Source: Methanomicrobiales archaeon (GTDB lineage: Archaea > Halobacteriota > Methanomicrobia > Methanomicrobiales > JACTUA01). Taken from it: a stretch of 64,000 nt of DNA. Under the pieces are notes generated by a model that was not told the origin of the DNA, made no database searches, and saw nothing but the letters and a program-made list of their open reading frames with translations. The position numbers and the translations under genes are program-made. Location: the NCBI GenBank assembly GCA_015660865.1, contig JACTUA010000005.1:62001-126000 (forward strand), given 5' to 3'. This document shows positions 11,942 to 16,354 of the stretch, piece after piece; positions within the stretch are counted from its first letter, which is position 1; each line of letters opens with the position of its first letter.

Positions 11942-12709
11942 TCAGGTCTTCGATTTTTCAGGGTGCTTCTCGTGGCGCTTCTCGCCAGGCTTCTCGCCGC
12001 CCTTCTCGGCTCCCTTTTCAGGTGCCTTCTCGGCATGCTTCTCGCCGGGCTTCCCTGCTCCCTTCTCGGCATGCTTCTCGCCCGGTTTCTCGGCTCCCTT
12101 CTCCCCGGCCGCTTCAGGGGCCTCCTCGGCAGCCGCCGCGGGGGCGACCGGCGGGGCGACGACCTTCTCCTCGGCGATCTTCACATGGGTCGCCCGGATG
12201 CCCGAGACCTTGTGCTCGGTAATCTCGATCCGTGAGGGACTGGGGAGCTTGTGACTGCCGTGGCGCAGGGCGTCCTTCACCTTCTCCATGTTCTGGGTCA
12301 GGGTGTAGACCGAGAGGATCTTCTGGCCCGGGTAGACCCGTGCCGCGGAGCCCACGGCCTTCCCGAAGGAGAGGCGCATGCCCTCGGAGACACGGTCTGC
12401 GCCGGCGCCCGTCGCCTGCTTGTTCTCCCGGAGGATGTGGTGGGGGTAGACCCGGATCTTCAGCCTGAAGTTCGCCCGGCCCAGCTCCTGGAGCCGGCGG
12501 TTGATGACGATGCGGGCCGCCTCGAGGGCCGTATGCCGGATCTGGCACCCCTCCAGGACGATGAGGGAGAGTTCCAGGGGGAACTCCTCGGTGAGGTTTC
12601 CCATGTCGAACTGGACCAGCTTGGACCCGGGTACGCCACCCATGTATTCACGCCGCGTGTATGCCATCTTGGCGAGGTTCCTGTACATCCTTCCCGGTTT
12701 CCTGACCAT
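11942..12709 (-). CDS. rpl10e: Ribosomal protein L10e (uL16) with long charged tail
   Basis: Residues 1-177 are a normal archaeal L10e, the uL16 protein of the large subunit near the peptidyl-transferase and 5S RNA region: [49 protein letters not shown], and a core around [16 protein letters not shown]. Family members usually stop at about 170-175 residues. This one adds about 78 residues of Ala, Glu, Lys, Pro, Gly and His in imperfect repeats such as [10 protein letters not shown]. The tail is built from repeated GAG-AAG codons, has no predicted fold and is probably disordered. Upstream are a strong TATA box and three 16-base repeats that may be a control site. The frame is intact, so a frameshift artefact is unlikely. 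Confidence 0.93.
11945..12178 (-). repeat. Low-complexity codon repeat encoding the L10e tail
   Basis: The plus strand repeats CTTCTCG every 9-15 bases, corresponding to Glu-Lys pairs. Units such as [10 protein letters not shown] recur at residues 209-218 and again, with changes, at 221-230 and 241-250. It looks like slippage or unequal-crossover growth of an in-frame repeat. Confidence 0.7.
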
Positions 12710-12803: not shown

Positions 12804-13562
12804 CTAATCCGAGGATCCACCGGAGATCAGATCGAGGACATGGCGCCGGATCTCGACGAAGTCCGCGCAGGTCCGGTCCCTCGGGTGCGGACATTTCTGC
12901 ACGGGGACGATCTCGCGGATCCTCCCGGGCCTCTCGGTGAGGACCACGATCCGGTCGGCGAGGAAGACCGCCTCGTCGACACTGTGGGTGACGAAGAGGA
13001 TGGTCTTCCGGGTCTTTCTCCAGATCTCCTGGAGCTCCGTCTGCATCAGGTTCCTCGTCTGGGCGTCGAGGGCCCCGAAGGGCTCGTCCATGAGGAGGGC
13101 CGCGGGCTCGGTCGCGAGCGCCCGGGCGACCGCAACCCGCTGCCGCATCCCGCCCGAGAGCTCGTACGGGAGGTTCCTCTCGAATGAGGCGAGGCCGACC
13201 AGGTCCAGGTACTTCCTTGCAACGGCAAACCGTTCCTCCCGGTCCCTCCCCTGCACCTCCAGCCCGAAGGAGACGTTATCGAGGACCGTCCGCCACGGGA
13301 AGAGGGAGTACTCCTGGAAGATCATGGCGATCCGACGCGAAGGGCCTGAGAGGGCCTCGCCGTCCACCTGGATCGATCCCGTGGTGGGGGTGTCGAGGCC
13401 GGCGATGATCCGGAGGAGGGTCGTCTTCCCGCACCCCGACGGCCCGAGGATGCAGAGGAACTCCTCGTCATCGACTGTCAGGTTGATCCCATCGAGAGCC
13501 GGGACCTGCTCGCCGGTCCCGGTGACAAAGACCTTGGAGAGGTCGCGGATAGCGAGCTTCAC
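12804..13562 (-). CDS. ABC importer ATP-binding protein (nitrate/sulfonate/taurine type)
   Basis: A 252-residue ATPase of the SsuB/TauB/NrtD class. The Walker A GPSGCGKTTLLRI, Q-loop IFQEYSLFPW, signature LSGGMRQRVAVARAL, Walker B ALLMDEPFGALD and H-loop FVTHSVDEAVFL are all intact. It drives uptake by the permease encoded upstream, whose stop it overlaps by four bases (13559-13562). The substrate cannot be read from the ATPase: sulfonates, nitrate, taurine, bicarbonate or a thiamine precursor are all possible for this class. Confidence 0.93.
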   Translation of the reverse strand: MKLAIRDLSKVFVTGTGEQVPALDGINLTVDDEEFLCILGPSGCGKTTLLRIIAGLDTPTTGSIQVDGEALSGPSRRIAMIFQEYSLFPWRTVLDNVSFGLEVQGRDREERFAVARKYLDLVGLASFERNLPYELSGGMRQRVAVARALATEPAALLMDEPFGALDAQTRNLMQTELQEIWRKTRKTILFVTHSVDEAVFLADRIVVLTERPGRIREIVPVQKCPHPRDRTCADFVEIRRHVLDLISGGSSD

Positions 13563-14320
13563 CGCTCGAGCCCCCTCCAGCAGAACCAGCGATCCTCGAC
13601 CGAGCGGAAGAGGAGGTCAAAGGCGATCCCGATGATCCCGATGGTGATCATCCCGGCGATGATGTAGTGCATCTGCCCGAAGTTGTATGCATAGAGGGTC
13701 AGGTAGCCGAGGCCAGAGGTGGTCCCGGGGAGCCACTCTGCAGCGATGACGCACATCCAGGCGATCCCGAACCCGACCCGGAGGCCGGTCCAGATGGTGG
13801 GAGCCGCCCCGGGCAGGACCACCTTTGCAAGGACCTGCCGCTCGGATGCCCCGAGGGTCTGGGCCACCTCGACCCAGGTCTTCTTGATCGCCCTCACGCC
13901 GTCGATGGTATTGAGGAGGATGGGGAAGAAGGCGCCAAGGAAAATAATGAAGATCATGGAGTTGATTCCCACCGAGAACCAGGCGATGGCGAGGGGGCCC
14001 CACGCGAGGGGAGGGATCGGCCGGAGGAGCTGGATGGTGGTGTCCGCGAGGGCGTCAAGGCGCCGGGACCACCCCATCCCGACCCCGAGGGGTATCGCGA
14101 TGGCAAGGGCCACCAGGAAACCGGCCCCCACCCTCTCGAGGGATACCATGGCATTGTGCAGCAGGCTCCCGGTCCCCAGGATATCGATCGTGGGGGAGAG
14201 GAGCACCGGGAGCACGGTCTCCAGCCTCGGGAGGATGAACTGGTTGTTGATGAACCGCGCCGCGATCTCCCAGACAATAAGGATGAGGATGGGGAGGAGG
14301 ATGCCGAGAGGTCTTCTCAT
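13559..14320 (-). CDS. ABC importer permease (nitrate/sulfonate/taurine type)
   Basis: A 253-residue inner-membrane permease of the SsuC/TauC class with about six membrane segments. It starts RRPLGILLPILILIVWEIAARF. The cytoplasmic EAA-type loop is ADTLGASERQVLAKVVLPGAAPTI-like (seen as AQTLGASERQVLAKVVLPGA), the contact site for the ATPase. It lies five bases after the binding-protein gene and overlaps the ATPase gene, so the three form one unit. The ATG at 14320 fits the usual permease N-terminus. Confidence 0.92.
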   Translation of the reverse strand: MRRPLGILLPILILIVWEIAARFINNQFILPRLETVLPVLLSPTIDILGTGSLLHNAMVSLERVGAGFLVALAIAIPLGVGMGWSRRLDALADTTIQLLRPIPPLAWGPLAIAWFSVGINSMIFIIFLGAFFPILLNTIDGVRAIKKTWVEVAQTLGASERQVLAKVVLPGAAPTIWTGLRVGFGIAWMCVIAAEWLPGTTSGLGYLTLYAYNFGQMHYIIAGMITIGIIGIAFDLLFRSVEDRWFCWRGLER

Positions 14321-14325
14321 GCCCT

Positions 14326-15531
14326 CTAAGCCTGTACCTCCTTCACGGATAAACCGCTCTCCTCAAGGGCGTACCGGAGCATGACGTCCTGGATGGACCC
14401 CTTGCCGGGCGCCGCCATCACGATGGGCTTTCCTGCGGCCGACCGCTCCTTCGCCCACTGGACGAAGGAGTCCCAGTCCGTTGCAGGTGAGGATGTGACA
14501 ACGACAACCCCCGAGCCCTCGTTGTTCAGGGCCATGAGGATCTTGAGCGGGGTTCCCTGGTCAATGGCCGAGATGGCGGGTGGATTCCCGACGTAGGCCA
14601 TCTGGATGGTCTTCGTTGCCGCGAGCTGCATCAGCTGGGGCCCGGCATCGGCCGGGATGAGCTTCAGGGTGGCCACCTTCTGGCCTTTCACCAGGAGGTC
14701 CACGAGATCCGGCCTCGTGGCCGTCGGGTCCTCCGGCTTCAGCGCGATCCCATAGGTATCGTTGAAGTACTGCCATTTCTTCACCGCCACGAAGAGAGAT
14801 GCGTGGTGGTCAGAGAGGAGATACCCGACCCCGACGGGGTTTGCCTCAGCGGGGGGGACGGCAATGCTCGACGCGTTGATCATGGCCATGGCACGGTCGT
14901 ACGGGCCGGTGTCGAAGAGGAGGGCCTTCGTCTGGTCATCGGTGGTGTTCTTCAGGGTCCCGGTGATGGTGCCCAGCTCGCGGAGGGCATACACGAACTC
15001 CAGCTGGCCGCCCATCCATTGCTCGGAGGGCTCGTTCACGAACTTGACCGTGGGAAATGACCGTTCCAGGATCTCAACCGAGGATACCGTGATATTCCCG
15101 TAGGTGAAGTTCCCCTTCCCGGCGAGCCATTCTGCGGTGATATCCGCCGCCTCCGACTGGTGGTCGTTGATATACCGGGTGGCGAGGATGGTCGCCGCCC
15201 CCATGGCGTCCACGAAGGCCGGGTTGCTGTTCATAAAGTCGGTGCGGCTCGTGAGCACGCAGCACGGGTGGTTCTTCCACCGGTCATCGGGCGGGAGGTT
15301 GCCCGAGTACGTGATGACCCTCCCGATGCCGGCCACCGGTGCCACCTCCACGAAGGGCTGCCACGCGATGTACCCGTCGATCTGCTTCGTCGCAAGGAGG
15401 GTGGGCATGGGGCCGGTACCCTTGGTGTAGAGGATCCCTACGTCGCCGGTTGCCTGCTGTGTGGTGGTGCATCCGGCGGCGATGAGGAGGACCGCCAGGC
15501 ACCCGAGGAGGAGAAGTCGCATCCCTTTCAT
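14326..15531 (-). CDS. ABC importer substrate-binding lipoprotein, apparently circularly permuted
   Basis: A 401-residue extracytoplasmic binding protein with a lipoprotein signal, MRLLLLGCLAVLLIAAGC, cleaved before Cys21. The usual SsuA/TauA/NMT1 order is reversed. Residues 27-215, immediately after the signal, resemble the second half of such proteins (MPTLLATKQIDGYIAWQPF, then the C-terminal helices). Residues 232-401 resemble the first half (VGVGYLLSDHHASLFVAV, MAYVGNPPAISAIDQG, LNNEGSGVVVV, GKGSIQDVMLRYALEESGL). The protein then stops where the first half should continue into the second. Both halves look complete, so the fold could still close as one permuted two-lobe protein. It is divergent from the regulator at 15818. 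Confidence 0.85.
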   Translation of the reverse strand: MKGMRLLLLGCLAVLLIAAGCTTTQQATGDVGILYTKGTGPMPTLLATKQIDGYIAWQPFVEVAPVAGIGRVITYSGNLPPDDRWKNHPCCVLTSRTDFMNSNPAFVDAMGAATILATRYINDHQSEAADITAEWLAGKGNFTYGNITVSSVEILERSFPTVKFVNEPSEQWMGGQLEFVYALRELGTITGTLKNTTDDQTKALLFDTGPYDRAMAMINASSIAVPPAEANPVGVGYLLSDHHASLFVAVKKWQYFNDTYGIALKPEDPTATRPDLVDLLVKGQKVATLKLIPADAGPQLMQLAATKTIQMAYVGNPPAISAIDQGTPLKILMALNNEGSGVVVVTSSPATDWDSFVQWAKERSAAGKPIVMAAPGKGSIQDVMLRYALEESGLSVKEVQA

Positions 15532-15646: not shown

Positions 15647-15741
15647 TGTCCAGTTTATACAAATGGACATCCCCGTGTCCAGTTTGTAGAAATGGACATC
15701 CCCATGTCCAGTTCGATAGAAATGGACATCTTTATGTCCAG
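15647..15741. promoter_or_regulatory. Array of TGTCCA/TGGACA palindromes between importer and regulator
   Basis: Three successive units begin at 15647, 15676 and 15705 (spacing 29 bases), with a half unit at 15735. Each has TGTCCA, an 11-12 base A/T-rich middle (GTTTATACAAA in the first) and TGGACA, joined by TCCCC. A repeated palindrome in a divergent gap is what a dimeric regulator's binding array looks like. The nearest candidate is the XRE-type protein encoded at 15818. The middle of the first unit also resembles a TATA box. Confidence 0.7.
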
Positions 15742-15817: not shown

Positions 15818-16354
15818 ATGGTCCGCCTTGACCCCATCGACCGCCTCCTCCGGGCATCCATGCTCTCGGACGAGGACTTCGTGGCAACGCTGAACGGGAT
15901 CCTGAAGACCGACATGAGGATGACCGTCCGCGAGCTCTCGGAGCGGAGCGGGATCGCCGCCTCCTCCCTGTACAAGATCCTCCACGGGGAGCGGTCCCCC
16001 AACCTCTCCACCCTCCGCGCCATCGTGGGCGCCCTGCGGCTTGTCTCGAACCCGGGGGGGGAAGAGGAGTTCATCGGGGTTATCGCGGCACGCCAGACGC
16101 TGGACGGGATCGAGGAGCGGGTGGCCGAGGTGGACGGGAAGAGGGTCAGGGTGCGGGAGTACGCGGTCCATACCATCGAGGACGCAATCGTTGCCGCGGT
16201 CAGGGCGGAGCGGGAGGGCGCCCGGGGCATCGTCTGCGCCCCCATCGTCTCCTCGACCATCGAGGAGCTCGTCTCGATCCCCGTGGCGACCATCGTCCCG
16301 CGGGAGAGCGTCCAGCAGGCCATCGAGCTCGCGGCCCGGAAGGCATGGCATTAA
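15818..16354 (+). CDS. XRE-type HTH regulator with C-terminal domain of unknown function
   Basis: A 178-residue DNA-binding protein. Residues ~35-75 form a Cro/XRE helix-turn-helix (MTVRELSERSGIAASSLYKILHGERSPNLSTLRAIV). The C-terminal ~100 residues (RVRVREYAVHTIEDAIVAAVRAEREGARGIVCAPIVSSTIEELVSIPVATIVP) form an alpha/beta ligand-domain-like region that I do not recognise. I start at ATG 15818; the frame continues upstream to 15563 but that part crosses the palindrome array and reads as non-protein. There is no good ribosome site. It is divergent from the ABC importer, which it may control together with itself. argH follows 31 bases after the stop. Confidence 0.75.
   Translation: MVRLDPIDRLLRASMLSDEDFVATLNGILKTDMRMTVRELSERSGIAASSLYKILHGERSPNLSTLRAIVGALRLVSNPGGEEEFIGVIAARQTLDGIEERVAEVDGKRVRVREYAVHTIEDAIVAAVRAEREGARGIVCAPIVSSTIEELVSIPVATIVPRESVQQAIELAARKAWH

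Follow-up and report, generated by a model that had tools for sequence, protein, structure and literature searches.

Probable circular permutation of an SsuA/TauA/NrtA-kind binding lipoprotein from Methanomicrobiales and its apparent recurrence in one archaeal transporter family

Natural circular permutations are usually regarded as rare, single and old. Among the substrate-binding proteins of ABC importers some permuted chains are already known. The glycine betaine-binding lipoprotein OpuAC of B. subtilis (PDB 2b4l/2b4m/3chg) has been reported as a circular permutant relative to ProX (PMC2395249). It is also permuted with respect to OpuAC from L. lactis; residues 1-146 of the B. subtilis query align with 109-255 of 3l6g. 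TpMglB-2 (Tp0684) from Treponema pallidum, classified as 'Type Ic / Cluster Bc', is a naturally permuted, anchored ABC binding protein, and its authors proposed a link between the permutation and membrane tethering (PMC4990184). This protein has a type I (cluster B) sugar-binding fold, in which about three strands are permuted and a fourth hinge crossing is required. The initial annotation of the locus described here had stated that no such permutant was known in the SsuA/TauA family. No earlier circular permutation of an SsuA/TauA/NrtA protein was found in the open-licence papers searched. What appears to be new here is the permutation in the SsuA/TauA/NrtA family and its likely recurrence.

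The window, i.e. the whole stretch of 64,000 nucleotides that was analysed, encodes a substrate-binding lipoprotein of an ABC importer which, like OpuAC, has a type-II fold and is cut in lobe II: the old termini are joined, the new ones lie in lobe II and rotation restores the match to the family profile. It differs from OpuAC in its Pfam family (PF13379 instead of PF04069) and, judging from the sequences, in the site of the cut: the window protein is cut before b7, whereas the cut of OpuAC appears to precede the GIDPGSG strand, the equivalent of b6, and so to lie earlier by one unit of strand and helix. As an NMT1_2 protein of type II it does not fall into the Type Ic of TpMglB-2. With the canonical SsuA/TauA/NrtA-like proteins (2x26, 3uif, 6ssy, 2g29, and the binding proteins L059-L068 and L070 from the same locus) it shares Pfam family, motifs and operon type; these proteins have the normal segment order, unlike the window protein. 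The features are listed in Table 1. The open reading frame, its start, the lipobox and the motifs quoted in the initial annotation were all present.

Table 1. Features of the window and of related loci. Coordinates without a locus label refer to the window.
Feature	Coordinates	Strand	Basis or remark
Substrate-binding lipoprotein gene, SsuA/TauA (NMT1_2, PF13379) type	14326-15531	-	401 residues
Signal peptide + lipobox LIAAGC (C21), residues 1-21, new N-terminus	15469..15531	-	sequence; type-1 conservation
Normally C-terminal half, residues 29-208: lobe II strand b7, hinge, lobe I C-terminal part	14908..15447	-	PF13379 positions 151-252, canonical alignment, AF2
Linker from old C-terminus to old N-terminus, residues 209-231	14839..14907	-	AF2 secondary structure
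Normally N-terminal half, residues 232-401	14329..14838	-	rotated Pfam/TIGR/PDB profile matches, alignment
ABC permease (BPD_transp_1; SaoP and TauC as best-scoring NCBIfam models, both below cut-off)	13559..14320	-	profile search
ABC ATPase (TauB/SaoA-like, below equivalog cut-offs)	12804..13562	-	profile search, synteny
rpl16 (ribosomal protein L16/uL16)	11942-12709	-	
Divergent HTH_3 regulator	15818..16354	+	reading frame open from 15563, start position deduced from ~180-aa homologues
TGTCCA-N11/12-TGGACA palindromes, three nearly identical copies at a spacing of 29 bases, between regulator and binding-protein gene	15647-15728	.	motif search
Alternative-cut permutant	L197:2936-4123	-	cut ~133-137 of profile, close to that of OpuAC
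Alternative-cut permutant	L198:2865-3953	+	cut ~133-137 of profile, close to that of OpuAC
Type-3 loci	L158-L170, L172-L196, L199		eight other archaeal families

We conclude that this is very probably a substrate-binding lipoprotein of the SsuA/TauA/NrtA (NitT/TauT) kind of ABC importer with a circularly permuted chain, as the initial annotation had proposed. The PF13379 model (252 positions) matches the natural protein with an E-value of 1e-31 as two stretches in inverted order, and not in the canonical succession lobe I - lobe II - lobe I; the better of the two aligns residues 28-137 with profile positions 151-252 (111.1 bits). When residues 226-401 were placed ahead of residues 30-225 in silico, a single continuous match was obtained (3-284 on profile positions 3-252; 124.6 bits). 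Both scores exceed the gathering cut-off of 24.7, and the NMT1_2 homology spans both halves. The TIGR01728 (SsuA_fam) match behaves in the same way, with two stretches in the natural protein (best 39-136) and one, over profile positions 37-231, after rotation. OpuAC from B. subtilis (2b4l), used as a control, likewise changed from two stretches (226.7 bits) to one (233.8 bits).

The break points match, as had been noticed from the sequence: the C-terminus ..GLSVKEVQA and the mature N-terminus DVGILYTKGTGPMP.. are neighbours in the alignment of canonical homologues. According to this alignment the new termini fall within lobe II, after helix aE (..ALEESGLSVKEVQA) and before strand b7 (DVGILYTKGTGPMP..), at about position 170 of the canonical profile; a new signal peptide and lipobox stand ahead of b7. 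The normally C-terminal half finishes at its old C-terminal motif LLFD..Y, from which a linker of ~23 residues leads to the old first strand VGVGYLLSDHHA. In the AlphaFold2 (AF2) model this linker is a helix (209-219) followed by a Pro-rich coil, and it has no counterpart in the aligned canonical homologues. The remaining half contains strand b1 (GVGYLLSDHHA), the ..GNPPA.. motif, the hinge and the first half of lobe II with ..GKGSIQDV... From its N-terminus the chain thus passes through the second half of lobe II and the end of lobe I, then through the linker, and finally through the start of lobe I and the first half of lobe II. The two lobes had originally been described as standing in reverse order. 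The inverted order of segments is correct, but a plain exchange of lobes does not describe it, since the cut lies inside lobe II and the old ends meet in lobe I.

In type-II binding proteins the two lobes resemble each other by structural pseudo-symmetry, so that weak or chance alignment of their repetitive elements could in principle simulate an inverted order in a protein of normal topology. We give this explanation practically no weight. The matches are specific to the correct halves and include the motifs SDHxA, GxPP, EGSG, GSIQD, W[QE]P and HPCC, which come from both lobes and which the window protein shares with its nearest canonical homologues; chance alignment is also at odds with the E-value of the two inverted stretches. 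Furthermore, when 393 genomes of the phylum were scanned with a profile of rotated sequences, the matches broke at ~172-176 in the permuted genes and continued through the junction in canonical ones. In the PDB, a profile of this kind also passes straight through the junction of SsuA and of nitrate- and sulfonate-binding proteins with solved structures (2x26 62-224, 3uif 56-273, 3e4r 63-220). Inverted stretches, rotation, phylum-wide breaks and the crossing in PDB proteins jointly exclude a normal topology. Canonical archaeal homologues are 26-34% identical to the rotated window protein; relative to them the window family carries, besides the linker between the old ends, extra insertions of ~26 and ~11 residues.

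Structure prediction also speaks against a normal topology. The AF2 model of the window protein, computed with 32 related sequences, reached a pLDDT of 94.2 and a pTM of 0.88; the top sequential matches found by Foldseek in the PDB, binding proteins and ligand-binding receptors, had TM values <0.3, and none was below an E-value of 0.001. A model of a second permuted subfamily (L090, type 2, see below; pLDDT 89.1, pTM 0.84) had OpuAC as its top match (probability 0.99, TM by target 0.42), which is itself a permutant. A confident model with a poor sequential fit to the PDB backs the permuted topology in a supportive, not a decisive, way.

Reversed halves could also result from a misjoined tandem pair of normal binding-protein genes, or from fused fragments of them, and the initial annotation had named such an assembly error as a possible source. 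The occurrence of the same order among relatives makes this explanation negligible for the window protein. Of the 232 genomes of the class, 120 (among them 72 of the 135 good ones) contain permuted-order homologues, which are nearly all of full length and in several cases lie intact on single-contig chromosomes. The same order and the same cut recur at 41-71% identity to the window protein in dozens of genomes, and the permease gene comes next in every window-type locus that extends far enough. Within the class these homologues are confined to five families of one order; records that contain one include CP121470.1, the complete genome of Methanoregula SKADARSKE-2 and Methanocorpusculum parvum. 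Outside this usual order, a type-1-like (see below) permuted gene occurs in a Methanothrix draft genome (G369; L118:6007-7194, + strand) 3' of a radical SAM gene, which by eye is NifB-like; horizontal transfer or a binning error is possible. Two genomes of genus g18 carry a tandem pair of permuted binding-protein genes (G121:C65:618-3194 and G126:C61:6079-8642).

Proteins with the b7 cut fall into three groups; a tree support of 89 separates these types, which may nevertheless share one origin. Type 1, to which the window protein belongs, comprises lipoproteins encoded mostly at a gatE-gatD-argH/rpl16-fumarase-korAB locus, and the lipobox is kept among them. Type 2 has the same order at other loci, with an N-terminal membrane helix and mostly without a lipobox; one type-2 gene (L094:6025-7184) is broken across two reading frames by a frameshift or a sequencing error. 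The proteins of type 3 are mostly 338-380 residues long, are devoid of the large insertion and, while distant from the window protein, have the same b7 cut. They were found in 29 of the 393 sampled genomes, in families f9 (probably Archaeoglobaceae), f15, f16, f26, f28, f30, f31 and f36; a permease gene and usually an ATPase gene lie alongside in most of the type-3 loci checked. An initial conclusion that the permutation is restricted to Methanomicrobiales was overturned by this same-cut type in eight further families.

A permease and an ATPase gene are likewise located downstream of the permuted homologues of the class, usually with a divergent HTH regulator, and the window protein has its cognate BPD permease and ABC ATPase encoded alongside. 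In most type-1 loci the whole block gatE-gatD-argH-regulator / binding protein-permease-ATPase-rpl16-fumarase-korAB is kept. The same slot is occupied by a canonical binding protein in one sister family and in parts of others (L059-L068, L070; sister genera), and the HTH_3 regulator adjoins both versions of the operon. In another family of the phylum the canonical systems L138, L149 and L151 have the same divergent regulator (53-54% identity); this common regulator makes it probable that the permuted operon and a canonical one are truly related. The permeases that partner types 1 and 2 in Methanomicrobiales form one clade (support 100/99), whereas those of the same-locus canonical binding proteins stand apart from it and group with canonical systems elsewhere. 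Sequence identities had hinted at a mosaic operon, in which the ATPase was kept while binding protein and permease were replaced. This idea was dropped: with outgroups, the ATPases of the normal-order loci join canonical ones from elsewhere (99). Our claim is hence limited to the permease clade, and no retention of the ATPase is claimed.

The palindromes upstream of the binding-protein gene are likely to represent an operator array of the HTH regulator. Three copies occur in the window, where 0.03 are expected, and the genome contains one other copy; in many type-1 loci a lone TGGACA is found ~120 bases upstream of the binding-protein gene. On the other side of the transporter genes, the rpl16 product continues past the normal 170 residues with a Lys/Glu-rich tail of ~85 residues containing GEKHAEK-like repeats, and the matches of some relatives similarly run beyond the normal length.

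The TIGR01728 score is 62.3 bits for the natural and 69.4 bits for the rotated protein, below the curated cut-off of 163.5, so that sulfonate specificity should not be assumed and the name 'sulfonate-binding' should be avoided; in the profile search the protein also stayed under the cut-offs of the sulfonate and taurine models. As a clue to the ligand, the neighbours of type 2 offered nothing conserved beyond the transporter genes. With somewhat less than even confidence, we would guess at a small organic anion, perhaps a sulfonate. The inverted order itself results in poor scores with the family models (PF13379 in two stretches, TIGR01728 below cut-off), and permuted proteins may for this reason carry only generic annotation.

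Within the PF13379 family a cut like that of OpuAC was found only in L197 and L198. Both proteins have the signal peptide left in place, L197 also retains a PGF-type C-terminal tail, and each operon includes a permease and a regulator. In the tree L198 pairs with the canonical L149 of the same genus (support 100), and L197 is nested in a canonical clade. Both are singletons from one draft genome each, for which a misjoin is still conceivable, and family-wide searches revealed no second example of either. If they are real, it is likely that at least three permutation events occurred in the family. Relatives on bacterial plasmids (L201, L202) have the canonical order in those examined.

A bolder reading, that this archaeal family is a natural hot spot of permutation, in which two cut sites were used in three or more independent events and the switch of topology was selected and not neutral, seems to us rather doubtful. 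In that case one event would be old and its product fixed in many lineages, and two would be young, standing beside normal-order sisters; the junctions to anchor or tail would have shifted between the lobes, and the permease would have been co-inherited or co-adapted.

The window protein presumably folds as the usual two-lobed clamp, whose lobes would shut around a ligand and hand it to the adjacent permease/ATPase as in the canonical relatives. From the fold, the permutation should leave lobe I continuous and lobe II with both chain ends, so that the lipid anchor would pull on lobe II and not on lobe I. The permuted gene may have originated by tandem or intragenic duplication in a permutation-prone family, with the first N-half and the last C-half lost afterwards. 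A duplication scar, i.e. redundancy at the two ends of the protein, was not detectable. In type 2 a second b7 copy at the C-terminus looked plausible by eye (TVxxYGT vs VxLLYAS), and shuffled-tail alignment gave it no support.

Halves from different binding-protein genes, brought together by fission and fusion, could mimic a permutation; an acquisition of this sort was considered by the authors of the TpMglB-2 study (PMC4990184). We consider this improbable for the present family, since the two halves of the window protein jointly make up one complete single-copy domain whose score rises on rotation, and since the rotated, joined halves of the permuted proteins group as one clade. In L197 and L198 each half is nearest to the same canonical relatives, and the signal peptide, in L197 also the C-terminal tail, has stayed in place. 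Circular permutation remains our preferred explanation. One transporter family offers an ancient conserved permutation, a genomic slot occupied by either topology, and two permutants that are apparently young and have close normal-order sisters. It could show how a permutation arises, by duplication or by fission and fusion, and if the choice of the lipid-anchored lobe matters for a clamp protein.

A tandem-fused intermediate was not found; the long open reading frames L140 (819 aa; L140:3142-5598, + strand) and L222 (1170 aa; L222:2818-6327, - strand) hold one canonical binding-protein domain each, embedded in a much longer chain. In L140 the binding domain is followed by a Thr-Pro-rich linker and extra domains of extracellular appearance.
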